From Limnanthes douglasii subsp. nivea (Eukaryota; Streptophyta; Magnoliopsida; Brassicales; Limnanthaceae), in NCBI GenBank assembly GCA_036936605.1, contig JAUPFV010000001.1, forward strand, positions 114,832,771-114,896,770: 64,000 bases of DNA. Direction: 5' to 3'. This document shows, in pieces, positions 3,364 to 64,000 of this stretch. Both the position numbers and the translations under genes were made by a program. The notes beneath the pieces were generated by a model. That model saw only the letters and a program-made list of their open reading frames with translations. It had not been told where the DNA came from and did not search any database. The number at the start of each line of letters is the position of its first letter. Position 1 is the first letter of the stretch.

Positions 3364-3367
3364 CTCA

Positions 3368-16108: not shown

Positions 16109-16265
16109 AACTAAAGTTTATTGTATCTCTTGGTTTATCACTTTTTTTGAGGTGTTAAGATTAATAAAGATTCGCGGATCAATATTTTAATCTCAAAGCT
16201 TCCAGAGTTAAAACTCACAACTTGGTTATAAACCATTCTTGTTGACCGTAAGATAATAAAGAAAA

Positions 16266-16787
16266 TAACAGTTTTTACTAAAAAGTTTGAAAAAAAATTA
16301 GAGCTTACAATATAAGGAAAATATAGTAAATTAAACTCGTGATTAGTATTTATAACATATAATGATCCTATCTGAGGTTTCTACGTGTTGATAATCCAAT
16401 AATTGGAAGAAAACAAAAGTAACCCAAGAGGCGATATTATACTTGGGACACATGTCTTAAACCCCAATATTTAGTCTTTATTTAAGTTTATCACCTTTTT
16501 TCCCACATGCAGTAATCACTTGTATTTATAACAGTTTTTACTAAAAAGTTTGAAAAAAATTAGAGCTTACAATATAAGGAAAGTATAGTAAATTAAACTC
16601 GTGATTAGTATTTATAACATATAATGATCCTATCTGAGGTGTCTACGTGTTGATAATCCAATAATTGGAAGAAAACAAAAGTAACCCAAGAGGCGATATT
16701 ATACTTGGAACACATGTCTTAAACCCCAATATTTAGTCTTTATTTAAGTTTATCACCTTTTTTCCCACATGCAGTAATCACTTGTAT
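16266..16787. repeat. Near-perfect 263-bp tandem duplication
   Basis: Unit 1 (16266-16528) and unit 2 (16529-16787) are identical except for one A in a poly-A run and three substitutions (GGAAAATATAG/GGAAAGTATAG, GAGGTTTCTA/GAGGTGTCTA, CTTGGGACAC/CTTGGAACAC). The units adjoin without a spacer. No coding capacity. The close identity, in surroundings of ancient decayed elements, indicates a recent local duplication. Confidence 0.95.
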
Positions 16788-27389: not shown

Positions 27390-28519
27390 TTAAAGCATGT
27401 ATGACGTCAGTTTAACCTTTACATAAAATACATAAGGGCCTTCCCAGTTCAGAGCCAGCTTACCAAACTGCTTTTCCTTAGTGTGTAAAAAAACTTTTCT
27501 TAATAATTTGTCCCCTATTTGAAAATATCTTCTTTTAACTTTAGAGGTAAATCTGCTCCTTATTAAGCCTTGGTAATGCGATGTTCTCAAATGTGCTTTA
27601 ACTCTTCTTTCTTTAATAAAATCCAACTGATTCTTGACTGCTACATCATTAGCCCGTTCAGAATATTTTTGGACTCTGTGAGATGGTAAAGTAGCTTTTA
27701 TGGGAATAATTGCATCCATCCCATACACTAGAGCAAAAGAAGACTCTTGTGTGACATCCCGAGGTGTAGTTCGGTAGGCCCATAATATTTCTTGTAAATA
27801 GCTTGGCCACTTTCCTGCAGCTCATTCTAATTTTTTATGCAATTCGGACAAAATTGTCCTATTTTCTACCTCAACCTGGCAATTTTCTTGAGGGTAGAAA
27901 GGAGAAGAAAAATAATGTTGAATTCCTATGGAGGTACAGAACACTTCCATGTCTTTATTGTCAAACCGTGGGCCATTATCTGTAGTAATCTTTCGGGGAA
28001 TCCCAAATCTGTAACATATGTTAGACAAAATAAATTTAATAACTGCCTTTGAAGTGGTTCCCGCCAAAGGAGCTGCCTCTATCCACTCCGAAAAGTAGTC
28101 AATAACAACTATGATTGTTCTACATCCACCGGATGCCATGGGAAAAGGTCCAACTAGGTCCATACCCGTCTGTCAAAGGGTATTGGTTCAGATATGGATT
28201 CCATATGAACTGCTGGCACATGAATTTCATTCCCATATTTTTGGCAAGGATCACACTTTTTCACCATTTCTTTAGCATGTGCCATTATGGTTGGCCAGTA
28301 GTATCCCGCTAATAAAACTCTTCTGGTTAGAGCCCTATAGCCACAATGTGCAGAACCTTCTCCGGCATGTAGTTCAGATAACACAACTTGAGATTCTTCA
28401 AATCCTAAGCAACGTAGGAGAGGCCTGCTGAAAGATTTCTTGTAAAGAACTTCTCTTAATATAAAAAAAACACGAGCCTTGTACTTGGTTTTCTTAGCCA
28501 CAACTTTATCCGGAGGCAA
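27390..28519 (-). pseudogene. Integrase of the Tat-type element, broken
   Basis: 28519-28154 holds the zinc-binding region (ELHAGEGSAHCG...GYYWPTIMAHAKEMVKKCDPCQ). 28163-27822 holds the catalytic core: the first Asp in MDLVGPFP, the second in TTDNGPRF, and Glu in PQENCQVEVENRTIL. 27728-27390 holds the C-terminal domain (GDKLLRKV...GKLALNWEGPY). The three segments are in different frames or separated by stops. Integrase inserts element cDNA into host DNA; this copy cannot make it. Confidence 0.85.
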
Positions 28520-28620
28520 TATCCCATTGGAGATGAACCGGAGAAGATCATATCTTTAGGTTGAATAACAAGTATATTCATACTTTCTTCACTTTCCTTG
28601 CCAAAAATATGTTGACCTGT

Positions 28621-29043
28621 CTATACGGATGGGCATTCCTGAACAAGAATCCATGAGTAAGATTCAGAATAAGGTATAGTTTCCAAAGAGTCTTCCAGAG
28701 TATTTTCCAATCTAGGAATGTGTTCGTAGTAGATATTATTGAAGTTTGCGGCAAATTCTTTCAACATAAACAAGTATTTAATCAAATGTTCTTTCTTTGC
28801 TTCAGATTGTTCTTGAACATGGTGAATCAGCAATTGGGAATCACTCATTAACCGGACTCTCTTTTCCCCACATATGAGAGTTAGCTTAAGACCAGCTATC
28901 GCAGCTTCATATTCAGATTCATTGTTAGAAGCTCTGAAGCCAAAACATAAGGTCTGGTACATATTGTCACCATAGGGAGAAGTTAAACAAATTCCATCCC
29001 ATAACCCATAATACTTGATCCACCATCGGTTCGAACTACTCAT
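28621..29043 (-). pseudogene. Second (archaeal-type) RNase H of the Tat-type element
   Basis: 140 codons open. SNNESEYEAAIAGLKL (about 60-75) carries the Glu block and VRLMSDSQLLIHHVQ (about 83-97) the Asp block; YEHIPRLEN near the end fits the C-terminal region. The SNN.AEYEA.I.GL pattern distinguishes this extra RNase H from the one adjoining RT and supports assignment to the Tat group. Confidence 0.8.
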
Positions 29044-29213
29044 TCTTTCTTAGACTGGTTTCCTGACTCCTGTCAGGAAGATCTATGAGTATGAAATTCT
29101 ACCAAGAAGTCAGCCACCGAATGGGTTTTAATTGCTGTTCGGGGTGCAAAATCAATATCATAATCACCCAACTCCACTGACCACTTGGTCATTCTAGTTG
29201 ACACATCAGCTTT

Positions 29214-29560
29214 TTAAAGAACATTTTTCAAGGGGAAAGATGTTCGAACAACAATGGAATGAGCTTGGAAGTATGGTCTCATCTTTCTTGCTACAATTAC
29301 TAGGGCCAATGCCAATTTTTCCAACTTAAAATATCTCATTTCAACATCCAACAAACGTTTACTGATGTAATACACCGGACGAGGGTGATTGTCCACTTCT
29401 CTTACTAGCACAACACTTATTGCATACTCTGATACAACTAGATATACATAGAGTTTCCCCCCCGAACAGGTTTGAAAAGAGTTTTAGGTGAAGACAAATG
29501 CTTCTTGATTTCAATAAAAGATTGGTCACACTATGAAGACCAATTAAAGTCTTTAGCATT
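29214..29560 (-). pseudogene. RT-adjacent RNase H of the Tat-type element
   Basis: The minus frame gives REVDNHPRPVYYISKRLLDV, then E.RYFKLEKLALALVIVARKMRPYFQAH. This is the standard gypsy RT-connected RNase H (PVYY.S..L...E.RY...EK..LA.V...RKLR.YF..H). Upstream the frame is interrupted. Confidence 0.75.
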
Positions 29561-29755
29561 CCTCAGCACTTAGAAAAATGGAACGCACTTGTCCGATGAT
29601 CTTGAAATAAACCTATTCAACGCAGCCAATCGTCGTGTCAGTCTTTGAACTCGTTTAATATTTTGAGGAGGATCCATAGCTAGCAAGGCATTAAGTTGAT
29701 CTGGATCAAGATGAATTCCCTTCTCACTTATTATGTAGCCCCAAAACTTTCCAGA

Positions 29756-30255
29756 TCAGACCCCATATACACAATTTTCAGGGTTCAATTTTAAATTTAC
29801 CACCTCCAAGTTAGAGAATATTTCTTGAAGGTTAGATATATGTGCATCTTCCTCTAAGCCTTTAACCATCATATCATCTATGTAAACCTCCATGTTTCTG
29901 CCAATCTGATTAGCAAAATATTTATTCACTAACCTCTGATAAGTGGCTCCAACATTTTTTAATCCGAATAACATCACCTTATAATAATGAAGACCTCTGT
30001 CTATGATGAAAGTAGTGTGATCTTGATCCTTCAGAATTACTTTTATTTGGTTGTATCCTGGAAAAGCATCTATGAAAGATAATAAATTGTTTCTAGAGAT
30101 AGAAACCACCAACTGATCTATCGAGGTACAAGATAAAGATCCTTATGGCATGGCCTATAAAGGTCAGGGAAATCAATGCACATGCGCCACTTGCCATTCT
30201 GTTTCTTGATCGGAACAGGGTTGGCCGTCCACAAAGGGTATTGAGATTTTTTAAT
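29756..30255 (-). pseudogene. Reverse transcriptase of the Tat-type element, broken
   Basis: The start is seen near 30240 (KKQNGKWRMCIDF). An in-frame stop follows; then 30112-29756 is open with SFIDAFPGYNQIK, YKVMLFGLKNVGATYQRLVN and the catalytic VYIDDMMVK (YIDD). The catalytic aspartates are retained. RT would copy element RNA into cDNA. Confidence 0.85.
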
Positions 30256-30611
30256 GTGACCCATCTTGGTTAAACGGTCAACTTCTTGAATAATCACATA
30301 GCTTTTTACTTAGAAAAAGACCTTCTCTTCTGTACAACTGGTGCAATATCACTCCAGATTGACAACTTATGGGAAATAATATCAGCTGGCACTCGAGTGA
30401 CATTACTGTTATACTATGCGAAAACATGTTGATTCTTCATCAAAAAGGATAATAACCGGTGCTTTAAATCCAACACCAACTTGGAACCAATTTTAACACT
30501 CTTGCCTTCTAAGAAGGAGTGGGTTTCAATCTCTTCAATAGGTATTATAACATTGAGAGCCTCCCTGGGATCATCAATTTCATTTTCCTAAGCAGAAGGC
30601 TCCAATAGCTG

Positions 30612-31020
30612 CTAATATTTGTTAACTCTGACTGCCCCTAAAGTTTTAGGGGCAAGGGCTATTGCATACCATTCCATAGATATCTTCTGGCTGCTCCAGA
30701 CAAAACATACTTGTCCCTGGACAACATAATTCAAACATTGGTGCACCGTAGAAGCCACAACATGCATTCTAAAAAGGCAAGATCTTCCAAATATGGTATT
30801 GTAAGATGTTGGGCAATCCACCACAACAAACAGTAGTCTTACCATCTTTTAAATAGTCCTTTTCCCAACAACACTTCCTCTTCGAACTCCCCAATAACAT
30901 TTACTAAATTTTCTGTGAAGCTTACAATGGTTTAATTCGAACGTTGTATAACTGAAGGGTTTCTCATTTGCTTGTAGGAGCTAAAAATACGATGTTTTCC
31001 AAACTGCCTGTATTATTTAG
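30612..31020 (-). pseudogene. Aspartic protease of the Tat-type element, catalytic Asp lost
   Basis: The active-site block reads LNNTGSLENIVF (about 31020-30985), where D-T/N-G-S is expected; Asn replaces the catalytic Asp (codon at 31014-31012). The downstream part at 30845-30612 has LFVVVDCPTSYNTIFGRSCL and STVHQCLNYV. A stop separates the two. Retroelement protease cuts Gag-Pol; this copy would be inactive. Confidence 0.7.
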
Positions 31021-32653
31021 AATCTGGCGTTTATCATTTCTCCTTATTGATGCCCTTATTACCACCACATCTTCATGAGGCCCTGCAATGTCTCTCAGGT
31101 CATCCTCATAAAAAACTATAAAGGGAGATGATGCCCTTTCTTTTTTTATGTATACCTCCAACTTGCCCCTTTTAATGAGGTTCTGGACCTCTTGCTTCAA
31201 GGTTATACAATCATAAGTATCATGACCTATATCATTGTGGTATTGGTAGAAACGGGTGCTCCAGTTTTCTCTGGGGGACTGCAATGCTGTTGGCTTTCTA
31301 AAATGAACCTCATTCTTAGTCTTGTCATAGATTGTAGCCATGCTCTCCTTCAATTCAGCAACCCCCTTAGGCTAAACACATGCCCCCTCTTATTTCTGGC
31401 ATGTTGGATCTGAGTTTGGTTAGACTGATTCTGCCTTGACCGGTTGGACCCCGGTCCAATCTCTTTTTCACTGTAACCGGACTGATTAGTAGCTGGAAGT
31501 GTTGTTGTTGTAGTAGTAGACCTCACTTGGTGGTGTACTCTGGTTTTTTTAGTCTTTTCGACGTTGATTTGTTTACCCAACTGATTAAACAAACCATCTT
31601 AGGTCATCGCCTTCTTCCGAGTCACTGAATCAGCTAAATTACCAAGGTTTAAACCTTGTCTTAGGGAAACAATCACAACTTGTTCAAAAAAAATATGTTA
31701 TCCTATTATTTGTGTTCACAAAACGATTGATGTACTCCTTTAGGGACTCGTTCGGCTCCTGAGCACAATGGATCATGGTGTCCCCATTACCCTTGAGTTC
31801 TTTACTTCCAACAAATTACCTCCGGCAGGCAACTCAGAACGTATTAAAATTTCTTATACATCCTTGAGGGAGACTGTTGTACCATTTGATGACACTTCAT
31901 TTGAAAGTTTGGGAGAAAGCCTTGCACAATAAGCGTCATCGAAATTCATCATGAAGTTCTTAAACTTCTCCAGATGGTTGTCCGGATCTCGACTTCCATT
32001 GTATTTCTCCATCTTTGAGCTATCAAACCTCTTAAAAAGATATTCGGAGAGTAATTTTGCTGACAAAGGCGATTGCCTCTAATTTTTTCTACGGCTAAAA
32101 ACAGTGTCTTCATTAGGTGTGGCAAAAATACTCGGTTCGGACTGAAAAGCAAAAAGATCAACGAATAACTGATCAATATGTTTATTGGTTGATCCCTTAC
32201 CCTTGCTTCTAAAGCCTGCCATGCCTATCCCTCTTTCTTGAATGTGTTTTAGCCAACCTCATTTTGTTTTTTGACCTTTTCAGTACTTGAAGATAATAAT
32301 TCTTCAAGATTAGCCTCATTTGATGGGTTGTTGGAGGACTCAGATGTAGAACTCCCAGCAGGTTTAGATCGGTGTGTCTTCTTGGAACTGAGATGTGTTT
32401 TCAAAGACTGCTCGTTATCTCAAGGATTGTCAGTGTGATGAAGTATTGATGCACCAAATGTTTCCTTAACTCTTTTTACTGCTTGTTTTATTGCTCTCAA
32501 CGCCTCTATTTCAGCTCTCAACTGGTTGCGCTCCTCAATAGTATACTCATTGTCTTCCCTTGCAACTTCCACCTCAGGAGGTGGAATATTATGCTCATTC
32601 GGATCCATTCGAACTACTTTGCTTGCTGGTTTTGAATTGTGAAATGTAGGCAC
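30964..32653 (-). pseudogene. Gag of the Tat-type element, broken
   Basis: N-terminal part 32653-32420 (LRAEIEALRA coiled segment). Core at 32180-31850 (FKRFDSSKMEKYNGSRDP, NHLEKFKNFMMNFDDA). Polar linker at 31592-31350. Zinc-knuckle-like region at about 31260-31150 (FYQYHNDIGHDTYDC...LIKRGKL), in which the usual first Cys is Tyr. Frames are interrupted several times. Confidence 0.8.
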
Positions 32654-35684: not shown

Positions 35685-36270
35685 TTGGATTAATTATGGA
35701 CCGATATGCTAAATATATATATCGTCATCATCATAAAGTAGTCCAATAATACGTAACTGGATTAACAATATATGTAATTAAATAAGAATTGTACCTATAG
35801 GTGAAAAAGCATTGTGAATGTATAAATGTGGTAACCGGGTTAAATTTAGGAACTGTGAAGGATTGAGTCCAAATCGCAACACTAAGACTTGAACTGATAA
35901 TTCATAGACTAAATTGATAAAATCATTTTAGTGGTCGGGGTCTCCGATCACAAAACGGATAGAGTAAATTGGCTTTATGCAACTAGAGTTTATAGTTGTA
36001 TTTGTATATAAAAAGAAGATTGTGGTTAGTTTATTCCTTAACCTAAACCCTAAAAGATCAGTCGCTGCTTTGTTGAGAAAACAAAATTAAAACTATCTTC
36101 ACTCAATAACAACTGAAGTAAAATTCAACTCAGAATTATGGATAGCAGTAGACAAAATTGTGAGTTTATTTTAATATATTTAATTATTAATCACATAAGA
36201 GATTATACATTATGTTTTGATAAATTGTATTTAGACGATTAAATTAGTTTTATATATTGTTATCAGAGCC
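35685..36270 (+). repeat. Candidate LTR and primer site of an older copia-like element
   Basis: A stretch with TATATAAAAAG (about 36007) and a leader ends before TTATCAGAGCC at 36260-36270, a near match to the initiator-Met primer site TGGTATCAGAGCC. The left boundary is approximate. The younger copia element at 36487 sits just downstream, apparently inserted in this older element's interior. Confidence 0.4.
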
Positions 36271-36486
36271 AAAACCTTATCGTGATTCATAGGATAAACT
36301 CAAGTATATCTATAATTGAATCAAAAAATATATTTTTCTTATACATAATCCATACCATTGAGATTAATTGATTAACTAACTTCGTAGGGTATGGACTTAG
36401 AGTATTATGTGAATATATATATACAATGATTGTTTTTTTTTATAAGAAAGCATGTTTAAGTGTTTTAAATTTTTTTATGAATAAAT
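36267..36486 (+). repeat. 220-bp direct repeat, left copy, flanking the copia element
   Basis: Identical in length and nearly in sequence to 41159-41378 (starts AGCCAAAACCTTATCGTGAT, ends TTTTATGAATAAAT). It ends exactly at the left LTR of the copia element. Far too long to be a target-site duplication. Confidence 0.9.
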
Positions 36487-36656
36487 TGTTAAGAATATAA
36501 AGCCCATATAAAGCCCAAGCCCGTTAGCTTTCTTTTATTATAAATAAGAGCATATGCTGTACTAATTCATATACTTCTGAATAATACAAAAACCCTAGCC
36601 GTCTAGCGGTTTGTTCCTTTTGTTACTTCTCTCGTTTCTCTCTTTGTTTCTTAACA
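36487..36656 (+). repeat. 5' LTR of the copia element
   Basis: 170 bp, TGTTAAGAATATAAAGCCC...TTTCTTAACA, with terminal TGTTAAG/CTTAACA inverted ends and a TTATTATAAATAAG TATA-like segment near 36535. Confidence 0.93.
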
Positions 36657-36669
36657 TGATATCAGAGCC
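36657..36669 (+). other. Primer-binding site of the copia element, mutated
   Basis: TGATATCAGAGCC directly follows the LTR. One base differs from the initiator-Met site TGGTATCAGAGCC. The inverted copy near 40965-40980 retains the canonical form. Confidence 0.85.
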
Positions 36670-36708
36670 AGAAGTAAACTGATCGCGTAAATGTAACAAT
36701 CAGATTTA

Positions 36709-36831
36709 TCAGGTATTTGATTTCGTATTAGAACCGATTGATAAAATTATCAGGTATTTGATTTTGCATTAGATCCGATTGATAAAATTATCAGGTATTT
36801 GATTTCGTATTAGATCCGATTGATAAAATTG
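36709..36831 (+). repeat. Three 41-bp tandem repeats in the copia leader
   Basis: Units starting TCAGGTATTTGATTT at 36709, 36750 and 36791, nearly identical. Looser repeats of GGTAAAATTGCAC and ATTGTTCGGCAA follow at 36890-37200. The leader is long (about 780 bp) and non-coding. Confidence 0.9.
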
Positions 36832-37443
36832 TAAGTGAAATTTATCGGTGAAATTGGGGCTTAGAAGGAATCGAAATTGCAAAAGTATTGGTTAAGAATA
36901 TATTTTTTTGGTAAAATTGCATTGTCAACTTATTGGTAAAGTTGCGTCTCGGGGAACAATTAGAATTGAATTAAAAAATATTGGGAAAATTGCACTGTGT
37001 AAATTATTGGTAAAATTTCATAAAAGCATTGTTCGGCAAGAAGAGTAGCGTCTGAGTTTATTGTGTTTTTATAAAATTGCACTGGATAAATTTCAGGTAA
37101 AATTGCACAAAAGTATTGTTCGGCAAAGAAAAGTTTTCTCCGATAAATTTGGTTTATTGAAGTAGTGGTAAAATTGCACAAAAGTCTGATGAAATTGCAG
37201 AAGAGTTATTATTGAATTATTAGTAAAATTTCTAATAAATAGATATAGTTTTCGGTTTTCGGATCTGCTGTGTGCAGCTCCAATAAAACGGTCCGATCGA
37301 AAGGAAAACAAAGTCCGTTTTGCTGAATTTTGGAGAGCATGTTTGGGACATCCGGCCCTTCAATATGACCGGTCGGATTTTGATTCGGTGCTATAGTTTG
37401 GGAGAAATTTCAACTGGAACAGTGGAGCAGTTTTGTTGAGATT

Positions 37444-39147
37444 GTGGATATTATTGCGAACATGATAGGAAAAGATGATAAGAAAAACCTTGTTACATCT
37501 GCATACCATTCGGGTATGTCCTCGTCTTCCACTTCAGGTATTGATTCATCATTGTGGATTTTGGATTCGGGTGCGTCTCATCATATGTCACCTCACATGT
37601 CGAACTTTGTTTCGTTGTCTCATGTTTCACCCATATCTGTTTTGTCTGTTAGTGCTACACCAATGTCATTAGAGGGTATTGGCTCTGTTTGTACCCCTCA
37701 TATATCATTATCTGATGTTTACTACGTTCCAACCCTTTCTTTGAATCTTGTTTCGGTTAGTCAATTGTGTAAATCTGGTTATTGTGTCTTATTTTCCGAT
37801 TATGTTTGTGCTATACAAAATCAACAGACCGAAAGAGTGATTGGGATAGGTCATAAAATAAGGGAACTCCATGTTTTGGAGAAACTCGAAGTAACATATA
37901 TGGATGTCTATGGTGTTGATTGTGAAAAAACATACTTGACTGATATTGCTGCCTCCGGTGTTGATTTGTCTTCGTTTCGTTTGAATCCTTCATTGTCTAA
38001 GTTTTATCTTTGGCATTCTCGTCTTGGACATGTATCTACATCTTGTTTAAAGTTTTTAGTCTCTACAGGTGCTTTAGGTCAGCTAAACACTTGTAATATC
38101 TCGGATTGCAGTGGTTGTAAACTTGCAAAATTTTCGGCGTTACCGTTTAATGAAAGTATTTCTTCCTCTATTGCTCCGTTTGATATTATTCATTCTGATG
38201 TCTGGGGTCCATCTCCTGTCTCCACAAAGGGTGGTTCATCCTACTATGTTTCTTTCATTGATGATTATACTCGATATACTTGGGTTTACCTTATGAAACG
38301 AAGATCAGATTTCCTTGGAATTTATAGAGAATTTCGGGCACTTGCTAAGACTCAACATTCTGCTGTAATAAAATGTTTCAGGTGTGACTTGGGGGGTGAA
38401 TATACATCCAATGATTTTACTCAGTTACTTGCATCTGATGGTACCACACATCAGTCTTCTTGCACTGACACCCCTCAGCAGAATGGTGTTGCAGAAAAAA
38501 AACATCGTCATCTTATTGAGACTGCTCGTTCTTTACTTTTATCTGCTGAGGTTCCTACTATTTTTTGGGGAGAAGAAATTCATACTGCTGTATATGTGAT
38601 TAATCGAATTCCCACTGCTCATAATGCAGGGATGTCTCCTTTTCAGAAGTTATATGGACAACTTCCAAATTATTCTTTCTTACGAGTGTTTGGATGTACA
38701 TGTTTTGTCATTCGTCCTCATGTAGAACGCAACAAATTGGGCCCTAAATCCGCAATATGTGTTTTCTTGGGTTATGGTGTTAGACATAAAGGTTATCGTT
38801 GTTTTGATCCCACTAGTCAGAAACTTTATGTCTCTCGACATGTTACTTTTCTTGAGCATATCCCGTTTTATTCGATTCCAACGAAATCACATGATAGAAC
38901 AAGTACCAAACTTCAGACTATTGATCCCTTTGAAAATAATAGCGACATACCCATTGATATTGATGTGCCAGCTCCTGAGACTCAACTACAAGTGATACTA
39001 CTTCTGCTCCATCAAGTCCGGATTCAGCTTCTTCTCTTAGTGAACCACCAGCTCTACCCCTTAGAAGATCTACTCGTACAAGTAAGTCTACCAAACTACC
39101 AGATTTTGCGTATTCTTCTTACTCAGCTCCTTTTGCCTCTTTCATAG
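37444..39147 (+). pseudogene. Copia protease-integrase reading frame
   Basis: 567 codons open. Residues 38-48: WILDSGASHHM with protease Asp41. Residues 190-230: GAG-pre-integrase zinc region (LWHSRLGH, then CSGC). Integrase catalytic triad Asp252 (HSDVWGP), Asp315 (CDLGGEY) and Glu351 (PQQNGVAEKKH). Residues 400-480: the copia VFGC.CFV / FLGY block. The true frame is lost around 38995 (residue 517), where a frameshift turns the product to low-complexity Leu/Gln residues; a second shift near 39150 precedes RT. The 36 residues before the protease motif show no gag homology. Confidence 0.9.
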
Positions 39148-39149
39148 CA

Positions 39150-40672
39150 AAAAACATGATTTATATGAACCAAGGTCATTTAAAGAAGCTGTTTCTGATC
39201 CTCGTTGGCAAAATGCAATAGTCGAAGAGCTCCCTGCTCTTTACCAAACTCATACATGGGATATAGTTAAGCCTCCATCCGGTAAGCATATAATCGGTTC
39301 TCGATGGGTTTTTAAAATTAAAACAAAATCTGATGGATCTGTTGAAAGATACAAGGCCCGTCTTGTAGCAAAAGGGTATTCACAGAAGTATGGTATGGAT
39401 TATGATGAAACATTTGCCCCATTGGCAAAAATGACGACTGTTCGTACTCTTATTGCGGTTGCTTCTGTTCGCCAGTGGAAAATCTTCCAACTCGATGTCA
39501 AGAATGCATTTTTGAATGGTGATCTTCATGAGGAGGTTTACATGACTCCTCCTACAGGTGTTGCTCACCAACCAGGTGAAGTTTGTCGACTTAGGAAAGC
39601 CTTATATGGACTCAAACAAGCTCCTCGTGCCTGGTTTGAAAAATTCTCTACGGTTAGTAATCACGATTCGGCCTTGTTTATCAAATGTACTAGTGTAGGA
39701 CGAATTATTTTATCCCTATATGTAGATGATATGATCATTACAAGTGATGATATTGATGGCATTGCAGCACTAAAACGTGATTTGGCTCAACGTTTTGCGA
39801 TGAAAGACTTGGGACTATTACGATATTTTTTAGGTATTGAGGTGGCTCACTCTCCAAAAGGTTATATTCTCTCTCAGACAAAATATATATCTGATTTATT
39901 CGAACGAGCGCGACTTTCTGATAACAGAACGGTAGATACTCCTCTTGAAACCAATGCTCGGTATTCTCCGACTGATGGCGTTCCTTTGTCAGATCCAAGT
40001 CTATATCGAACTCTTGTAGGGAGCTTGGTCTATCTTACAGTTACTCGGCCAGATATAGCTTATGCTGTTCATGTGGTCAGTCAGTTTGTTACTGCTCCTA
40101 CATCTGTTCATTGGGGAGCTGTTCTTCGAATATTGAGATATCTTCGTGGCACTCAGTTCCAGAGCCTTTTATTTCCCTCGACCTCTTCACTTGAACTGCG
40201 TGCCTATAGCGATGCTGATTGGGATAGTGATCCTCATGACCGAAAATCTACTACTGGTTTCTGTATTTTCCTTGGAGATTCATTAATATCATGGAAAAGC
40301 AAGAAACAAGATGTTGTCTCTAGATCGTCTACTGAAGCTAAGTATCGTGCTATGGCTGTCACCACATGTGAGATTGTTTGGTTATGATGGCTTCTTGCAG
40401 ATATAGGGGTTAATGTTACTAAACCAACTTCCCTACATTGTGATAACAAAAGCGCCATGCAGATAGCAAAGAATTCAGTTTTTTATGAGAGGACAAAGCA
40501 CATTGAAATAGATTGTCATTTCACTCGACATCATCTTCAGATCGGCACCATCTCGCTTCCGTATGTTCCATCAGCTTTGCAGATTGCTGATATTTTCACA
40601 AAGGCTCAGTCCACAGCGCGGTTTCGTTTTCTTTGTGACAAACTCTCAATGCTTATTACTGTTGCATTGTAA
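39150..40672 (+). pseudogene. Copia reverse transcriptase-RNase H, interrupted
   Basis: Begins after the second frameshift (RWQNAIVEELPALYQTHTW near 39210). Motifs are WVFKIK, RYKARLVAKG, YDETFAPLAK, FQLDVKNAFLNGDL, LYGLKQAPRAWF and the catalytic LYVDDMIIT (about 39716). RNase H follows: YSDADWDSD (about 40205), SRSSTEAKYRAMA (about 40320), HCDNKSAMQIAKN (about 40438), HIEIDCHFTR and ADIFTKA. One TGA at 40385-40387 interrupts RNase H. A short stretch after AWFEKFSTV appears missing compared with usual copia RT. Confidence 0.9.
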
Positions 40673-40673
40673 G

Positions 40674-40685
40674 TTTGAGGGAGGG
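40674..40685 (+). other. Polypurine tract of the copia element
   Basis: TTTGAGGGAGGG immediately precedes the TGTTAAG start of the 3' LTR. Confidence 0.85.
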
Positions 40686-40821
40686 TGTTAAGAATATAAA
40701 GCCCAAGCCCATTAGCTTTCTTTTATTATAAATAAGAGCATATGCTGTACTAATTCATATACTTCTGAATAATACAAATACCCTAGCCGTCTAGCGGTTT
40801 GTTCCTTTTGTTACTTCTCTC
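40686..40821 (+). repeat. Truncated 3' LTR of the copia element
   Basis: Matches the first part of the 5' LTR up to GTTACTTCTCTC, then breaks off; the last part (...TTTCTTAACA) is missing. It also lacks a short stretch (CATATAAAGCC) present near the start of the 5' LTR. Confidence 0.9.
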
Positions 40822-40824
40822 CTT

Positions 40825-41158
40825 TACGAAATCAAATACCTGATAATTTTATCAATCGGATCTAATGCAAAATCAAATACCTGATAATTTTATCAATCAG
40901 ATCTAATACGAAATCAAATACCTGATAAATCTGATTGTTACATTTACGCGATCAGTTTACTTCTGGCTCTGATACCATGTTAAGAAACAAAGAGAGAAAC
41001 GAGAGAAGTAACAAAAGGAACAAACCGCTAGACGGCTGGGGTTTTTGTATTATTCAGAAGTATATGAATTAGTACAGCATATGCTCTTATTTATAATAAA
41101 AGAAAGCTAACGAGCTTGGGCTTTATATGGGCTTTATATTCTTAACTATTTATTCATA
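40825..41158 (-). repeat. Inverted copy of the copia 5' LTR, primer site and leader repeats
   Basis: Reading the minus strand gives about 10 bases of left-flank sequence (ATGAATAAAT), the whole LTR, TGGTATCAGAGCC, and three leader repeats. This is the reverse complement of about 36473-36815. It joins the truncated 3' LTR on the left and the right 220-bp repeat on the right. Confidence 0.92.
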
Positions 41159-41378
41159 AGCCAAAACCTTATCGTGATTCATAGGATAAACTGAATGTAT
41201 ATCTATAATTGAATCAAAAAATATTTTTTTCTTATACATAATCCATACCATTGAGATTAATTGATTAATTGACTTCGTAGGGTATGGACTTAGAGTATTA
41301 TGTGAATATATATATATACAATGATTGTTTGTTGTAAGAAATCATGTTTAAGTGTTTTAAATTTTTTTATGAATAAAT
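41159..41378 (+). repeat. 220-bp direct repeat, right copy, flanking the copia element
   Basis: Nearly identical to 36267-36486. After it the sequence continues ATATTGTATGG, which would be the natural right flank of the insertion site. Confidence 0.9.
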
Positions 41379-42849: not shown

Positions 42850-43329
42850 TTGTAAGAGTCCCTCATGCGGACCAACACTGTTTGAGATATATTGATCAAC
42901 TAAATTTATATGAAAGATATTTTCGACGATGTCATAACCTAGCCGCCCCGAGCAGCCGCATACCATACCATTTAACGGTGACACCACCGTCATGACTGGT
43001 AGTGGTGGTTCCACCTCCACTGTCCAACAACCCATCAGTCAATACTCTCCCTTGACCAATCACTACAACAAACGTAATCTTTAACAATCTTCATCTGAAT
43101 CCCACCAAAATTTAAAGCCTTTGAACTTACCACTATTGACTCAATCAATGACTGATTCACAACCCAATCTAGCCTTCATCAATGCAATATCCGATCCAAT
43201 GAATTCATCTCCAGTATTACACTATAAAAAATCCCCGTCTCCATATACCTTAAATACCAATAACCTACAATACAAGCAACCACAAAATAAACATACCAAA
43301 TCCTTTGTAGATGTTCTCACCAAAACATC

Positions 43330-43701
43330 TGTTACAGGACTCGTTAGGCACGATAAATCCAAACTAGAAACCCAAGGAAAGGTTCGAAGAATGGTAGAAT
43401 AAGGACTAGGAGATAATGCTGTAAGTAAGAAGATTACCTCTAAGAACACAAATTCTCTTCAATGAGTATATGAGTAGACAATAGAGAGAAAGATAAAATA
43501 ACTTGAAATTAAGATTATGCCTTTTCGGAGTTCCTATCTCTCTTACATATAGATTTAGAGTCATAAATAAAGAGAACGAAACGGACATCAATTAGGGCTT
43601 AAATGAATGAAAAGTAACGGTAGTAAATGAATTAAAAGTAACGGTAGTCAATGAATGAAAAGTAACGGTAGGATTAGGAGACCAATAGGATCTCTGTAAC
43701 A
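43330..43701 (-). repeat. 3' LTR of the CPSF73-carrying chromovirus
   Basis: 372 bp, TGTTACAG...CTGTAACA on both strands (8-bp inverted ends). Contains three short repeats of GAA(T)GAAAAGTAACGGTAG near 43605-43675. Differs from the other LTR at AAGG/AACG and ATAAT/ATGCT. The last residues of the chimeric ORF run into it. Confidence 0.95.
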
Positions 43702-46249
43702 TTGCCCCCTTCTTCGGAACATCCTTGTCCTCAAGGATGGCAATTTGGATACTTGGCGGTGAAGTTTTGGGAAAACTCCCAAGTAGCGGCCGATGACGGA
43801 TAACTCTTCCATTGAACGAGAACTTTGGTGACAGCGGCGTTGCGGTGCTTGACTGTTTTGCGTTCCAAGATTGCTTCGGGTTCTTTAGAATTTTGTTTAG
43901 AAAAGTAGGGTCTCGATCGCTAATAAGCTCCTTAAGGAATGTACTTGTCTGAGCATAGTCTGCGTGTGCTGAAAACGAAATGTAGTGTACCGACATGTTC
44001 AGCGGTGCATATAGACCATTCATGAGCGTGACTTCTTTAGGTTCATTGATTATGGTCTTTGCAAGTGTTCCTTCAACAACATAACCTGGTATGACACAAG
44101 CATTTTTTTTATCAGCACACCACATGTCAAAGAGTTGTCTTGATAACCCACTTTGTAGTCCACCAGGACTTGCCATCACTACAGATGAGCCTACATCTCT
44201 AAATTTTTTGATGCTGTTTAATGGAGAAATATGCTTGAATATAAATGGGTTTGAGTTTGCGAATTGGTTTTGGATCCATTCGTTCATGGAAAAGATGTAT
44301 GTCTGGTAATCAGCCATACACCTTTTAGCAAGTGGTGAAGCATAATATATTGGAGTGTTATGCAGATCATGGTGGGTTGCCCAGTACTCATCAAGAATCA
44401 AGAGAAGCTCTTGGGCACGACCCAAGGAAAATGCTGGAATTAGGACACGCCCCCATTGAGAAACCGTTGAGTGGATAACATCGGTGAATCGCTTGTCCCA
44501 AATATGCTGAGGTTGATGGAGCTTAACACCATAAGTGGATTCAATGATACATATATCAGAGGAGAATTGTGGGAGCTCAACAGCACAGAGATGTCGATCT
44601 TCTTCACGAGAATAATCTCCTGTGTAGAGAATACGAACACTAGCTATATCAACCATGAACATAGCAGCACCTAAAACATGGCCAGCCGTGTAGCACCAGA
44701 ATTTAATGCCGTTCACTTCTACTGTCGGATGAAAGTCAATAACCTCAATTTTCTCCATGGATTTGTTTATGTCTTGTTCATCAAAGAGCATATCTTCAAC
44801 TGAAACTTTGCTCACTTTTACATAATCAGTCAATAGTAGCTTATAGATTGCCTTAGTTGCATGGGTCATAAACACTCGTCCCTTGGATGTCGTCTTTTCC
44901 AGAAAATAAGATAGGGATGCAGCATGATCCAAGTGAAAATGGGTGATGAGAAGGACATCTATGGTTGAAGGGTCGATTTCATCAAAATAAGGCAGTGCAG
45001 ACATCCCACAGTAAGCAGGGTGAATTCCACAATCAAACAGTATGGTGTTCCCTTTGAAAGACATGTAAACGCATGATCGAATTATATCATCCTTTTGAAG
45101 GGATGAGTAGCGATAACGTCGGAGATTAACGGGATTAGAACCGCTTACCACAGGAAATTTGTGATTAAACCCTTCGCGAAAAGGCGGTAAAGCTGTGGGT
45201 TCGACGAAAATTCCAGAGTACGAACTGATCAACTCACACAGTGTAGAGTCCGTAGAAAATTTTGTTTTGGTCGCCGAAATATGAGACAAAAGAGCTTTTG
45301 GGTTTAATTCGTCTAAAACGTCATCTATTATCTCATGGCCAAACAACAATGCGATCCGAGGTTCTTGATGCATTAACTTGTTCAAACTTGCTCCGTTGAT
45401 CGCCTTACAACCCTTGTTTACATTCCCACGCAGCACATGCTTCAAACCATTAAGGTTGAATTCCATTCGGAGGTTGAGAAAATCCCATAAAATTGGACCG
45501 AGGGTGTGCAACCATTGAATACCTATCACAAAATCACAACAGTCAAGGTTTAAAGTTCTTACCTCGGTGGTGAGATCATAGCCTTGTACTTTCCAAGAAA
45601 AATTGCTACACTTGTATTTTGTAACAATTGTGCTTCCCAAGGCGGCGGAAACCACCATCGGTTTAGTCGCTTCGAGAGGGCAACCGATTTCATTGGCAAC
45701 CTTTAGGTCCAAGAAGTTGTGTGTACTCCCGGGATCAATCAAAATGTGGATCTTTTGCTTACCACTTTGTCCTGTCAAACGCATACAATTAAAGGTTGTG
45801 TTGCCCGTCAGTGCGTGTTGCGATATCATAGGCGGTTGTGTTTGCTCTGACTCAACAGACGTCTTGTTGACTACGTCATGAACCTCATCTACATCGAAAA
45901 GTCCAGATTCTGCATCACCTTCCATGACATATATATGAGCCTTGCGATGGGTTTGTTGATGGCCGGGAGTGAAGATTTCTTCGCAATACATGCATAGACC
46001 TTTTTGTTTGCGATCTTGCATCTCTTGCCACGTAAATTTTCGGGGTGTTTGGTTGTTGTTTCTTGAGATAAAATTCGGCGTCTGATGTGTTAGTGTGTTG
46101 CTAGGGGCAATGGGTAAAAGCGGTGGCTGGGTGTTTTGATTCAGATATTTCGGTGTTTGATAGGCGTTTGGAGTAGAATAGGTGTTGGGTTTGAATGCGG
46201 GTCGTTGTGGTTTGTGAGGGAGTAGGCGTAAATATGATTCATGCATCAT
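43592..46249 (-). CDS. Chimeric ORF: gag zinc knuckle - protease - RT start - CPSF73-I MBL/beta-CASP core (885 aa)
   Basis: Residues 84-101: zinc-knuckle-like CMYCEE...GHQQTH. Residues 169-182: protease block [13 protein letters not shown] (Asp172; Pro where Ser/Thr is usual). Residues 354-388: RT lead-in ([29 protein letters not shown]). Residues about 391-775: CPSF73-I, the endonuclease that cuts pre-mRNA at the poly(A) site. It has metal-ligand motifs Asp406 (ILFDCG), HFHLDH 437-442, His524 (TAGHVLG), Asp545 (YTGDYS), Glu570 (IIESTYG) and His762 (SAHADY). It stops before motif C, so one zinc ligand is lost, and the N terminus (about 30 residues) and C-terminal domain are missing. Residues 776-785 return to integrase ([10 protein letters not shown]); the rest is out-of-frame chromodomain and LTR. 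No introns are visible. Sense orientation suggests expression from the 5' LTR. The first ATG follows a gag frameshift, so translation would need reinitiation, another start or frameshifting. Nuclease activity is doubtful. Confidence 0.93.
43702..43725 (-). other. Polypurine tract of the chromovirus
   Basis: The minus strand reads GTTCCGAAGAAGGGGGCAA immediately before the LTR start TGTTACAG. Confidence 0.85.
43731..43885 (-). pseudogene. Chromodomain remnant of the chromovirus integrase
   Basis: In a minus frame other than that of the chimeric ORF one reads [36 protein letters not shown] and [10 protein letters not shown], ending at a TGA at 43733-43731. This is the C-terminal chromodomain of plant chromoviruses (P..IL..R.V......EVLV.W.......ATWE......FP). 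The shift means the chimeric protein would not contain it. It identifies the element's clade. Confidence 0.85.
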
Positions 46250-46251
46250 AG

Positions 46252-47070
46252 CTATTTTGCTGCTTCGGCAACGGATTCCACATTCTGAAACTGTCTCACA
46301 TGAAGCTGCAAATGTGGATTTAGATTAGTTAAGAAAATACTTAACGCATGGGCGCGTGGTAGGGATAACCGTGTGAGTTTACACTCAAATTTATCATGAA
46401 ACACCTCGACCGAATCGGTCTCTTGTTGTAAGCTAACCAACTCCGATAATGGATCGACATACAAACCTCCAAAGCGAGTAGAAATTGCAAGACCATATTC
46501 TGTCCAGGGTGGGTATCGATTGAAACGTTCTGCAATATAGTTGTGGTGCCATTGCAATGCCTTTCCTGTCATATGGATAGTAGCGAGTCTTACCTTCGAT
46601 TCATCTAGTGTTCCGTCAAGCGCAAAGAATTGTTCGCATTTAAAAACCCAATCGCGTAGGTCGGATCCATCAAAAATAGGAAACCCAACCTTAGTAAGGC
46701 GGGTGAGCAAACCGTTTGTTAGTGCCGTACGAGGCTCCTGATTAGTTCCACGATTCGAACCGGGGACAAGGTTCAGCGAATCAGGTGGTTCCGGAGAGAA
46801 TGTTTGGGGAAGCGTCGTGAAAACGCCGGAATGTGAAGGATCGTCGTCAACCAGCGGACGCTTTTCAGGGTTCTGTGTAATAGGGCGTAGCTCCGCAAAC
46901 ATGTTGTTAATATCATTGAATCGAGCAGTCATCTCATTCCTCAATAGATCGTTTTGTTTGAGTTGAGCCACACGATTTTCTTCATTTTGCTTGGCTTGGT
47001 CGGCCTGAACTTGCTTCATCTCCTCAAGTTGCTTGTTAACCTCGATCAAAGTTTGTGCCCTAGTTTCCAT
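46252..47070 (-). CDS. Chromovirus gag, N-terminal part
   Basis: 272 codons from [20 protein letters not shown], a coiled-coil N terminus (residues 1-55). The retrotransposon gag core follows (about 130-270): [61 protein letters not shown] and [16 protein letters not shown]. It ends at a TAG (46254-46252). The natural continuation into the zinc-knuckle region is in the frame of the next ORF ([11 protein letters not shown]), so a one-base shift in an A-run separates the two. Gag builds the particle that packages element RNA. Confidence 0.9.
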
Positions 47071-47120
47071 GACTGCTTATTTTGAAGTAGAAAAAAAAAA
47101 TCCGGGTCCGGAAGATCGAT

Positions 47121-47133
47121 GGCTCTGATACCA
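47121..47133 (-). other. Primer-binding site of the chromovirus
   Basis: The minus strand reads TGGTATCAGAGCC one base after the 5' LTR: a perfect initiator-Met tRNA primer site. Confidence 0.95.
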
Positions 47134-47134
47134 A

Positions 47135-47506
47135 TGTTACAGGACTCGTTAGGCACGATAAATCCAAACTAGAAACCCAACGAAAGGTTCGAAGAATGGT
47201 AGAATAAGGACTAGGAGATGCTGCTGTAAGTAAGAAGATTACCTCTAAGAACACAAATTCTCTTCAATGAGTATATGAGTAGACAATAGAGAGAAAGATA
47301 AAATAACTTGAAATTAAGATTATGCCTTTTCGGAGTTCCTATCTCTCTTACATATAGATTTAGAGTCATAAATAAAGAGAACGAAACGGACATCAATTAG
47401 GGCTTAAATGAATGAAAAGTAACGGTAGTAAATGAATTAAAAGTAACGGTAGTCAATGAATGAAAAGTAACGGTAGGATTAGGAGACCAATAGGATCTCT
47501 GTAACA
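47135..47506 (-). repeat. 5' LTR of the CPSF73-carrying chromovirus
   Basis: 372 bp, the same length as the 3' LTR and about 99% identical by eye. Its right end is followed by ACATC. Confidence 0.95.
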
Positions 47507-47882
47507 ACATCATTAGAAATCCACACTCTTAATATAATCACACATACAAAAAATGTCCAGCCATCTGAGTGTCAACCAAAGATAAATCAACCCTAGTACA
47601 CTTTGGTGGGTAAATTTTTACACGACAGACCTATGATGAAAATCATTCAAAATTTTCTATCTTCCCTTGGCTTTGCTGGTGAATATAACCATCCATTTGG
47701 GGACCTCGTCATGTTCTCTTATAATTTGACATATTAGAAGACAATGCTAAAATATGATTTTTTATCTAGTTTATAGGTTAACATTCCATGAGAATGTTTG
47801 AAATGGAATCAACTTTTTAATCATTGATTAGAATCACCAATCACTCATGTATGAATACTCTCACATACATGCATAAATTTAT

Positions 47883-57999: not shown

Positions 58000-59300
58000 T
58001 TTGAGTTATAAAGACTGCATGTCTTTCTTCAATAAACTTACTAGTATGATCATTTCTTTGACTTCTAAGTACCTCTCCTACATAGGTAGACTTCAACATA
58101 TCAAAGCCGCCTTATTTGAAGAGGCAGGTTTACTGGTCTTTGGTATTTATTATCCATATACACTATTGAATAATACTACAAACTCTTTCGTAGATATTTT
58201 TGGACAGGTCATGACCCAAAATTTACTGGATAAAATGTTGTTTAGTCTATAGTCACATTGCCCTTAGGTGAGGGGGCCTTGTGATTCTTCTCCTTAATTT
58301 CTGGAATGGGGCAGCCGTCTTTAAGCACTTATGGTCCATTTTGAGCAACAACACTTCCTCAATCTAGGGTAATTGGATTATTACCGAAAATATAAGAGAT
58401 AAATGCCTTTGGACTCTCCTTACATGATCTTCTAATAATCAGGGATGTAACAAGATTATAAATGTTAAGTCTATTTACTTCAAGCTATACAACTGTGTGA
58501 TTGGCAACATACGCTCTACCTCACTATGGTACGGAACTTGGCTATCTCCTAACTCTCTTTTGAGCCGTTATGACCATAGTATCTTTGTTCATGCATGTAT
58601 AGACAAAAATATGATTATCTTTGAGATTCTAAACAACGACTCTCGGAATTGTCCCAACCAACTATGTTAAGGTAAACATTCCCACCAGGCTCACTTCTTA
58701 GAAATTGGTATCGTTATAAATCTTCTTCAACATTTTTCACGTGAGGTGGATGTTAAACCATGGATCCTTAACAAAAACCATGCTTCCTTTATAATTAGTA
58801 ACATTTACCAACATATTAGGCCATCTAGGAAATATTCCTTGGCCTAATCTGGTTTGGAACAAGTACAAAATCTGCAAGAACTTATTTATTTCTTGCTTGT
58901 CATCCAAGATAAGCTTGGCATGTGTGACAAGCTCATTGTTTGGGGTTACAGCATAGTCTTCGACTGTGTCATGTGTAACCTTTCCTCGGAGTCCACAAAT
59001 CATTTATTTGTGAATTTCCCTTTCTCTCAGCTTGCTTGGGAGGCATATACCATGAAATTCCAGTTTTCTTAATTGATCTCTGATTGACCTAGATGGGTGC
59101 ATGCATATACCTGTTGGAATTCTACCCTTTCGATCCTTAGACACATATGCCGTACTTGCTTCTATGCGGTGTTTTACCATCTATTGGTTGAGAGAAACAC
59201 CACTATTTTATCTACTTCTGCCACGATTGAATCTACCATTTTCCAACGGATCCTCTTTGACCTTTGCTACAGATTTAAGACATGAATATCTAGTGGCTAT
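58000..59300 (+). pseudogene. LINE ORF2 C-terminal region with zinc-binding domain
   Basis: 58001-58252 is open (SLTSKYLSYIGRLQHIKAAL, then GIYYPYTLL), matching the post-RT region W......L...G...LI..VL......Y.. of plant LINE ORF2. Around 58800-59070 lies the zinc-binding domain (WPNLVWNKYK...C..PLSSESTNHLF.NFPFSQLAWE). Frames shift repeatedly. Confidence 0.7.
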
Positions 59301-59625
59301 GATACTTTTTATCTTATTAATTTACTCTTTTGTTTATATTTTTGTTTATGCATGGTCGAGTGATTTTATTTCCGCGTTGTCATGCCGTTTTTTCATACCA
59401 TTGTGTTGTATTGTTTTGTTTGATTGTCATACTCTACTTATTTTACTTTCGTTGTCATACGCTTACAGTGTTTCGAGAGGCTAAACCTCATGTAGTTGTC
59501 TCATATTTTAGAATTCATTTACGGGGAACTCCTCCATTAGTTATACTTGTATTTATATGGGGAATACCTCGTCGTACTTGTAAACTCAAGTTTTACTTTA
59601 ATGTATGGCTTTGAATAGTAACTCG

Positions 59626-59895
59626 TCCCTAGACTATCAAATTTAGTGACAGATAGTCCATGAACTTGCAAAAGTCTGGTAGTAGTTCATAGACTATCTA
59701 GTGTTCGATAAAGTTAGTCCCATTGCGTGTGTTGACTATTAATTTTCGTGACAAATAGTCCATCAATTATTAATTTTCGATAAAGTTAGTCCTTTTAATA
59801 AAAATGCGATGGACTAACTTTATTCAAAATGGATAATCCAAGGATTACCACCAGACTTTTGAAAGTCTAGGGACTATATGTCATCAAAATGGATA
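59626..59895. repeat. Foldback repeat at the LINE 3' end
   Basis: The left half (CTAGACTATCAAATTTAGTG ... GTTCGATAAAGTTAGTCC, 59631-59730) is an imperfect inverted copy of the right half (GGACTAACTTTATTCAAAATGG ... AAGTCTAGGGACTATATG, 59813-59879). The sequence is built from TAGTCC/GGACTA words. A related copy begins at the same place after the second LINE (63936). Confidence 0.75.
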
Positions 59896-61165: not shown

Positions 61166-62351
61166 CATTTACTTGTTTTTATTCAACCATACAATCACAG
61201 TTATTATCAAGTTTTTTAAGTTAAACTTTTTTTACCCTGCCATTTGGATCTTGCGGAAAAGTGAACAATGGTCCAAAAAAATTTAATATAAACATTTACA
61301 TACCTTTGCCAGAACCGTACACATTGATCGATCTTTTGTAATGTAAAAAGTACGAGATAGTGTTACAGCAACTACACACAAAAACATAGTTGCAAGACTA
61401 ACTCGATTGGGAGATATCAGACCAATATATTTGTTAAATCTGAATGAAGAACAATATACTTTTAAAATTAAGATTTAATCACTTTAACTGAAAATCAAAG
61501 TAATCTTAAATACTGGTTAATCCATGACCTTAAATCATTATACAATAGGCTATGTTTGATTTTAATGAATGACAAATTTCCTAAATTTATTTTATTACTT
61601 GGTAGACTATTGGTTGTAATTTTGATAAACATGAAACATATAATGTAACATTTTGAAATTAGGGGAGTAAATTATCGAATAATTCATAGTCGGGGGTATT
61701 AACCAACACTCGAAGCTTCAAACGTTTAGATGAACATCATATGTTAGAATGAGAAGCTAAGTAGCATCATAGTGACATAGATCACAATCATGGACTTGAA
61801 AACACTTTCTAGTCAAATAATTTCATAGAACAAAAACGAATTTTTAGCCTCATAAGATCTACCGGTGAATTTATAGGCTTATAGTTAGATATTTTATATT
61901 ACACAAAACGTTCCCACATATAGCTAAGATTGGACTCAATCCGAGCAAAAAACCAAACATAAGAAAGATGAATTAGTATTGTAAATAGGTTGTTTTGAGG
62001 TTTAATTTCACCAACACGAGACTTAAATTCGGAGTCTCATATAATTCAGTTAATAAAAAGAAATCCCAAACCAAAGAAAAAATAAAAGATAAGTTGTGTG
62101 ATACATTTACTCTTCATCTTCTTCGATAATAGAGTTTAATAGGATAACTTATCATATCATCAGCCAAAGAACCTTACAGATATGAATTGAATATAAATTA
62201 TGTAACACTATGAGAAAATATTTACTCATTCTTCATAAACATTAAAGCAAAGATTAATTTACATCGTATGTACATAACTTCGAGTTCAACCTACCAATCA
62301 CCTAAAAATAAGGAGATGAAACCAATAAAAACCATATAAATCAATACAATT
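59900..62351. other. Spacer, no gene recognised
   Basis: Contains a GGGT/ACCC-rich fragment (60595-60760: GTGTCGGGTTTGACCAACCC, ACGTGACCCGAACCCAACAC) like that at 8720-8880, and a (TA)n tract. The remainder is AT-rich with only short accidental open frames. Confidence 0.5.
61134..61163. repeat. (TA)n microsatellite
   Basis: About 15 TA units. Confidence 0.95.
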
Positions 62352-63935
62352 ACCAGTATGATCAATTTTTGGACTTCTAAGCACCTCTCCGACATAGGTA
62401 GAATTCAACATATCAAACCCATCTTATTCGAATGGGCAGGTTTACTGGTCTTTGGTCTTCATTATTCGTATTCACACTCTTAAATAATACTTCTAACTCT
62501 TTCGTAGATTTCTTTGGGCAAGTCCTGACCCAAAACTTACTAGATAAAACGTTGTTTAGTCTATAGTCATCTTGCCCTTAGATGAGGGGGTCTTGGGATT
62601 CTTGACCTTAATTTATGGAATCGGGCGACCGCCCTTAAGAACATATGGTTCATTTTGAGCAACAACACTTCCTTAATCTAGGGTAACTGGATTATTACAA
62701 TAAATGTAAGAGATAAATGCCTTTGGACTCTCCTTACATGCTCTTCTAATAGCTAGGGATAGAACACGATTATTAATTTTAAGTTTATTACCTTCAAGCT
62801 ATACAAGGGTGTGATTGATAACCTACGCTCTACCTCACTATGGTACAAATATTTCCTATTTCCTAACTCTCTTTTGATCCGTTATGACCATAGTATCTTT
62901 GATCATGCTTGCATGGACAAAAATATGAATGTCTTTGACATTATCAACAACGACTCTTGGAATTGGCCTAACAAACTATGTTAAGGCAAACAGTCCCACC
63001 AGGCTCACTTCCTAGAAATTGGTAACACTACAAATCTTCTTCAACCTTCTTCGCGTGAGATGAATGTTAAACTATTGATCCTTAAACCAAAACCATGCTT
63101 CTTTTATAATTAGTAGCATTTACTACCATATTAGGCCATTTAGGCCGAATATTCCTTGGCCTAATCTGGTTTGGAACAAGTACAATATCTCCAAGAACTT
63201 ATTTGTTTCTTGCTCGCCATCCAAGAAAAGCTTGGCATATGTGACAAGCTCAGTGTTTGGGGTTACATCATAGTCTCCAATTGTATCCTGTGTAACCTTT
63301 CCTCGGAGTCCACAAATAATCTATCGATGATTTTCCCTTTCTCTCAGCTTGCTTGGGAGGCATATACTATGAAACTCCAGTTTTCTTACTTGATCTCTGA
63401 TTGACCTAGTTGGCTGCACGCAGATACTTGTTGGACTTCTGCCCTCTCGGGCCTTAAACACATATGACGTACTTGATTCTATGCGGTGTTTTACCATTTA
63501 TGGGTTGAGAGGAACGTCACTATTTTCTCTACTTTTTCCACGATTGAATCTACCATTTTCCAACGGATCCTCTTTGACCTTTGTTACAGATTTAAGACAT
63601 GAATGTCTAGTGGCTATGATACCTTTTGTCTTATTAATTTACTCTTTTGTTTATATTTTTGTTTCTGCTTGGTCGGGTGATTTTATTGCCGCGTTGTCAT
63701 GCCATATTGTCATGCCATTGTGTTGTATTATTTCGTTTGCTTGTCATACTCTACTTATTTCAATTTCATTGTCATGTGCTTACAATGTTTCAAGAGGCTA
63801 CACCTCATGTAGTTGTCTTCCATTTTAGACTTCATTTTATGGGGACCTCCTCTATTAGTGATACTTGTATTTATATAGGAAATGACTCGTCGTACTTGTA
63901 AGCTCAAGTTTTACTTTAGTTTATGGCTTTGAATA
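62352..63935 (+). mobile_element. 5'-truncated LINE copy related to 58030-59625
   Basis: Starts abruptly at ACCAGTATGATCA and is collinear with 58030-59625 to its end at about 90% identity by eye (shared CTCTCCGACATAGGTAGA.TTCAACAT, TTGCTTGGGAGGCATATAC, TCCACGATTGAATCTACC). Only the C-terminal part of ORF2 is present. Truncation at the 5' end is the classic outcome of incomplete LINE reverse transcription. No intact ORF. Confidence 0.85.
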
Positions 63936-64000
63936 GTAAGTCGTCCCTGGACTATCAAATTTAGTGAAAGATAGTCCCTCGACTTCCAAAAGTATGGTGG
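63936..64000. repeat. Start of a second foldback repeat copy, cut by the window
   Basis: GTCGTCCCTGGACTATCAAA ... AGATAGTCC matches the left arm at 59622-59690 and sits at the same distance after the LINE end. Confidence 0.75.

Follow-up and report, generated by a model that had tools for sequence, protein, structure and literature searches.

The window analysed here, a 64,000-nt stretch of contig JAUPFV010000001.1 from Limnanthes douglasii subsp. nivea, contains a chimeric long terminal repeat (LTR) retrotransposon in which coding sequence of the host enzyme CPSF73-I stands in place of reverse transcriptase (RT), RNase H and the front of integrase. Judging from sequence comparisons, it is very probable that this piece was taken up once, by a template switch to spliced CPSF73-I mRNA, and that the resulting family was moved in trans by an RT-bearing parent; a single capture is likely, and amplification in trans is predicted. 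Capture of host genes by LTR elements is already known, and the novelty here lies in CPSF73-I as the source, together with the in-frame fusion and the spread to ~60 copies.

The chimeric element, its parent and its host source

Window positions 45000-46000, used as a query against the assembly from which the window comes (1.78 Gb in 633 contigs, with five scaffolds of 293-405 Mb), gave 258 candidates, 40 of which were scored: 15 matched throughout, and the other 25 only on the parent side of the junction. One of these 25, L058, measures 5,434 bp and carries gag, protease, RT (PF00078), RNase H, integrase and, at the integrase C-terminus, a chromodomain (PF00385, E 6.5e-8), which points to a Ty3/gypsy chromovirus. 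Uninterrupted parent sequence occurs at 180 places (77 and 103 by strand; control 0). Relative to L058, bases 2902-4675 (1,773 bp) are replaced in the chimera, a stretch holding RT, RNase H, the zinc-binding domain of integrase and over half of the integrase core. A second deletion, found in the window copy and the rest of its subline, has removed another 660 bp of integrase (parent 4719-5379), and the long open reading frame (ORF) of the window copy crosses the chromodomain region in a frame unlike the parent's. The features of the window copy are as follows.

43330..47506, minus strand: chimeric non-autonomous LTR retrotransposon, whole element, 4,177 bp (LTR pair, target duplication, primer binding site, polypurine tract)
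47507..47511, unstranded: target-site duplication, left copy, GATGT on the minus strand (ACATC on the plus strand)
47135..47506, minus strand: 5' LTR, TG...CA ends, three 24-bp direct repeats
47121..47133, minus strand: primer binding site TGGTATCAGAGCC, adjoining the 5' LTR, read from the sequence and presumably of the initiator-Met tRNA type
46252..47070, minus strand: gag ORF, 272 aa, stop-terminated (PF03732, E 1.7e-9)
45081..46249, minus strand: end of gag, protease and linker to the RT start, the upstream part of an 885-aa ORF
43932..45080, minus strand: captured CPSF73-I coding sequence, 1,149 nt, host coding nt 90-1238, in frame and without four introns
43702..43931, minus strand: integrase remnant and chromodomain region, out of the parent's frame after the 660-bp deletion
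43702..43715, minus strand: polypurine tract, adjoining the 3' LTR, read from the sequence
43330..43701, minus strand: 3' LTR, Kimura two-parameter (K2P) distance 0.0081 to the 5' LTR
43325..43329, unstranded: target-site duplication, right copy

The window copy thus has the paired LTRs, TG...CA ends, short target duplication, primer binding site and polypurine tract that mark an LTR retrotransposon, and lacks the RT, RNase H and integrase of its own that would mark an autonomous one. A preliminary description of this locus had proposed a young element of a chromodomain-bearing family with matching LTRs and the target duplication ACATC, which is borne out by the LTRs (372 bp each, differing at 3 of 371 aligned bases), by the two duplication copies and by the chromodomain of the parent. 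Its proposal that gag-protease runs in frame into CPSF73-I holds for the protease, since the 885-aa ORF (46249-43592, minus strand) encodes a retroviral-type protease (PF08284, E 5.2e-9) followed by CPSF73, and fails for gag, which lies in a different frame in this copy. Likewise, the replacement that it described is right for RT, RNase H and the front of integrase, another 660 bp of integrase having been lost separately.

The identity of the insert, also as first described, is clear. ORF residues 388-775 align with human CPSF73 22-409, 388 residues on each side (E 5.6e-167), and the best 120 of 5,592 protein matches to the CPSF part are either CPSF73-I or nameless proteins that share its domains, at 78-88% identity, all organisms named among these 120 being plants. 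In a DNA search with the CPSF part, 40 of 67 candidates were scored: 15 matched in full, 22 over the first ~403 nt and three over the last two thirds, these three being two intact CPSF73-I genes and one pseudogene. The intact genes (L039 and L040; C1:330.74 and 330.755 Mb) lie in tandem ~13 kb apart and encode 688 aa each; sugar beet is described as having a CPSF73-I tandem pair as well (PMC5107561). The pseudogene (L042:5607-7240, C112:350.8 Mb) has stops and is without the last intron.

The host range captured unambiguously is coding nt 90-1238, which in the first gene is interrupted by four GT-AG introns (109, 816, 90 and 888 bp), all of them exactly missing from the insert; capture at the DNA level was ruled out on this ground. 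At the 12 sites that distinguish the two host genes, the usual base of the chimeras is that of the first gene at eight and of the second at four, and because the bases are mixed in this way the source sequence was probably near the common ancestor of both genes. The insert is joined in frame at both ends. At the 5' junction two bases, AT (45082-45081), belong to neither parent nor host, and at the 3' junction parent and host have AA in common, or AAxGAGCT with one mismatch.

Since the introns are exactly absent and the in-frame junctions show a short match at the 3' end and two extra bases at the 5' end, the insert fits template switching to spliced mRNA. In the sequence of events that we propose, a packaged parent RNA was being copied when RT would have left its template inside integrase, at AA or the longer imperfect match, copied spliced CPSF73-I mRNA and rejoined the parent just before the RT region with the two extra bases. 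The chimera would have retained LTRs, primer site, polypurine tract, gag and protease, so that RT and integrase of the parent could copy and insert it. Later deletions may then have given rise to sublines: A1, with the whole piece and less integrase, to which the window copy belongs, and another in which only the first 405 nt of the piece remain, in frame with the C-terminal domain of integrase. The element would have continued to benefit from Gag-protease, with the CPSF part drifting as a passenger.

Copies, sublines and age of the family

A 30-mer spanning the 5' junction had 58 occurrences (25 forward and 33 reverse), with each of the five large scaffolds represented, and its backward-pattern control had none, so that the genome search suggested at the outset did reveal further copies of the chimera. 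By cross-matching junction lists, 15 of the 58 have the full piece, 42 have the 405-nt form and one has neither. The last, L057:1493-4357, has a CPSF piece that ends after 174 nt and joins LTR sequence. There are 16 places with the full-piece 3' junction and 43 with that of the 405-nt form, in each case one of them lacking the 5' junction; for the full piece this is C112:194486585, ~9 kb from a full copy and possibly a partial duplication.

Target duplications of 5 bp were exact in 12 of the 15 full copies, matched at four of five bases in two and were missing in one, and the earlier view of the element as a mobilised transduplicate is upheld by these duplications and by the recurrence of one junction. 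The 15 full copies cannot be counted as 15 independent transpositions: four of them (L051, L052, L054 and L055), within 300 kb at C223:184.4-184.7 Mb, have both flanks in common, from which we conclude that they are one insertion multiplied by segmental duplication, leaving 12 independent ones.

Between the LTRs of each full copy K2P ranged from 0.0027 to 0.0429 overall, from 0.0027 to 0.0247 in subline A1 (seven copies, including that in the window) and from 0.0062 to 0.0429 in subline A2 (eight copies). With the LTR dating rate of 1.3e-8 per site per year, this corresponds to ~0.1-0.95 million years for A1 and ~0.24-1.65 million years for A2. The LTRs of the two sublines differ in a stretch with 24-bp repeats, being ~371 bp long in A1 and ~324 bp in A2. 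A gag-protease tree recovers A1 (support 0.99), A2 (0.91) and the 405-nt form (0.92) each as a clade; trees built from the CPSF piece do not group A2 into a single clade, and support for A1 in them is 0.65 with the first 405 nt and 0.87 with the whole piece.

The 405-nt form has the first 135 CPSF codons fused in frame to the SH3-type C-terminal domain of integrase (PF24626, E 1.1e-19) and the chromodomain region, and 10 of 12 copies read open from inside gag, where the stretch compared starts, through the chromodomain region; in the one copy of this form that was scanned no chromodomain reached the E 0.001 threshold. As to other species, the best 120 of 944 protein matches each cover at most 61% of a query across the junction, in a search that did not extend to other plant genomes.

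Selection on the captured piece and its possible effect on host CPSF73-I

Captured sequence ends near host residue 413, ~9-11 residues before what we take to be the last metal-binding histidine (host His424, human 418), and the C-terminal part is also outside it. Within the captured range, all the residues checked in the presumed metal-binding motifs are kept in the window copy; the complete motif set, last histidine included, is not present, and the preliminary description of an intact catalytic core does not stand. Among the 15 full copies, a histidine of HFHLDH or SAHADY is altered or gapped in six, and the frame from gag through CPSF is unbroken in two. Indels within the CPSF piece were found in none of the seven A1 copies and in seven of the eight A2 copies, and one A1 copy has two stops in it.

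Substitutions in the piece were close to neutral expectation (nonsynonymous/synonymous/stop 0.69/0.28/0.03). On the A1 stem 16 were nonsynonymous and three synonymous; per copy, relative to the commonest base of the group, the numbers of nonsynonymous, synonymous and stop changes were 43:11:2 for A1 (seven copies) and 102:32:8 for A2 (eight copies), shared changes being counted repeatedly here. We also compared variants among 27 copies, namely the 15 full ones and 12 of the 42 with the 405-nt form. Variants common to at least two copies were 51 nonsynonymous and 17 synonymous in CPSF (neutral nonsynonymous share 0.72, p 0.69), and 68 and 47 in gag-protease (neutral share 0.71, p 0.0076), the two regions differing at an uncorrected p of 0.037. 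Single-copy variants departed from neutrality in neither region (77:24, p 0.38, in CPSF; 170:55, p 0.12, in gag-protease). The CPSF piece therefore changes like neutral sequence, with no constraint and no purifying selection, and gag-protease shows a modest sign of constraint.

An effect on the host gene at the RNA level, in which small RNAs of the family would reduce host CPSF73-I mRNA, is compatible with the template-switch origin and is possible as a silencing route, although we give it a low probability. The piece offers the homology for it: 564-887 of 1,143 21-mers are identical to a host gene in the eight copies without indels (622-769 of 1,105-1,142 in the other seven full copies), and identical 21-mers over the 27 copies together cover 1,136 of 1,162 nt of the host range. 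For rice and sorghum, small RNAs on captured genes have been reported (PMC3726574), and AtCPSF73-I is described as dose-sensitive, overexpression, knockout or knockdown being lethal and a slight rise causing male sterility (PMC5107561, citing Xu et al. 2006). On the other hand, the piece is in sense orientation, so that double-stranded RNA would need making, and two intact host genes have been kept. Lower still do we rate the bolder proposal that the ~60 scattered copies act as a mobile source of homology whose RNA tunes this essential, dose-sensitive gene in trans through small RNAs, by which the element would gain influence on the very machinery that terminates its transcripts.

Competition with the host enzyme by a working or dominant-negative CPSF73-like protein, also raised in the preliminary description, is unlikely, and we attach very little probability to it. 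Such a protein would be favoured by the in-frame protease-CPSF ORF, the motif residues kept in the window copy, the indel-free piece of A1 and the two copies open from gag to CPSF. Against it are the absence from the captured range of host His424 and the C-terminal part, substitutions that fit neutrality, the indels of A2 and the stops in one A1 copy. The piece is predicted not to work as a CPSF73-I enzyme, and with the last histidine missing and substitutions neutral we dropped protein competition as the principal explanation.

Origin of the capture and comparison with known systems

Several points weigh against the template-switch account with a passenger drifting behind a useful Gag-protease. 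The switch itself is reconstructed from the junctions and the absence of introns, no microhomology is present in the 5' junction sequence, and the reading frames of L058 are interrupted, a helper role being predicted for the parent. The deficit of nonsynonymous variants in gag-protease comes mostly from the 405-nt form (5:11, p 0.00125) and is not significant within A1 (10:6, p 0.58) or A2 (32:21, p 0.10), and gag-protease variants seen once in A2 lean the opposite way (102:27, p 0.042); more than a dozen selection tests of this kind were run, and exchange with the parent could be another source of extra shared synonymous variants.

A route through a long interspersed nuclear element (LINE), by which a CPSF73-I processed pseudogene was inserted into the parent element, would also explain the intron-free insert, and the pseudogene without its last intron at C112:350.8 Mb is a separate case of such sequence. 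Nevertheless, poly(A) is lacking at the 3' junction, the piece is cut off at both ends, and in the parent sequence 1,773 bp are replaced rather than interrupted, so that the junction sequence disfavours LINE-type insertion and we regard it as highly improbable. An assembly artefact or chance, the former named in advance as what might undo the original description, has practically no probability and was rejected, the 58 occurrences of one junction (control 0) being distributed over all five large scaffolds, with flanks and target duplications that differ among full copies.

The template-switch origin that we favour has partial counterparts. New elements such as Veju terminal-repeat retrotransposons in miniature (TRIMs) and BARE-2 have been attributed to abnormal RT template switching, which is likewise proposed here, but they took unknown or retroelement sequence whereas the chimera took spliced mRNA of a host enzyme (PMC13317346). 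LTR elements carrying host gene pieces, as the chimera does, are well known, with 672 captured genes given for rice, 1,343 for sorghum and more than 400 for maize, those of rice having a higher share classed as neutral pseudogenes (PMC3726574). Unlike that survey, the present case has the source genes, the parent, both junctions and the sublines of one event resolved, and the main text of the survey does not contain the word 'polyadenylation' (PMC3726574).

Capture of CPSF73 or CPSF73-I by an LTR retrotransposon was not found in the literature searched by titles and the starts of abstracts, most subscription papers lying outside its coverage, and 'cleavage and polyadenylation specificity' had 0 occurrences in the 15 papers, out of 73, that a wider search listed. 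Bs1 of maize is low-copy and without RT. As described, it encodes pieces of a plasma-membrane H+-ATPase, a xylan endohydrolase and a beta-1,3-glucanase, and the chimera resembles it in carrying host gene sequence between LTRs and mobilising it with them; Bs1, however, made three captures from three genes, and the chimera one capture from one gene, in ~60 copies (PMC13317346). This is an unusually well-resolved case, with source genes, RT-bearing parent, both junctions and amplified sublines readable in one genome, and is suited to testing if a young, multiplied capture has consequences for the essential, dose-sensitive gene from which it came, and if the Gag-protease of an element stays functional while a fused host-derived passenger drifts.

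Elsewhere in the window, tRNA and Rfam scans of all 64 kb gave 0 matches. Positions 36267-41378 hold a Copia-type element (RVT_2, integrase) with direct repeats (36267-36486 and 41159-41378), inverted repeats (36475-36809 and 41159-40825) and 41-bp tandem units. The minus strand at 27390-31353 has Gypsy-type pol pieces, each in a short ORF of its own, with RVT_1 and rve in the two scanned. A 262-bp unit occurs in two head-to-tail copies, 98% alike, at 16265-16787, and a 1.66-kb direct repeat with 87% identity and similar small ORFs is found at 58029-59680 and 62341-63998.

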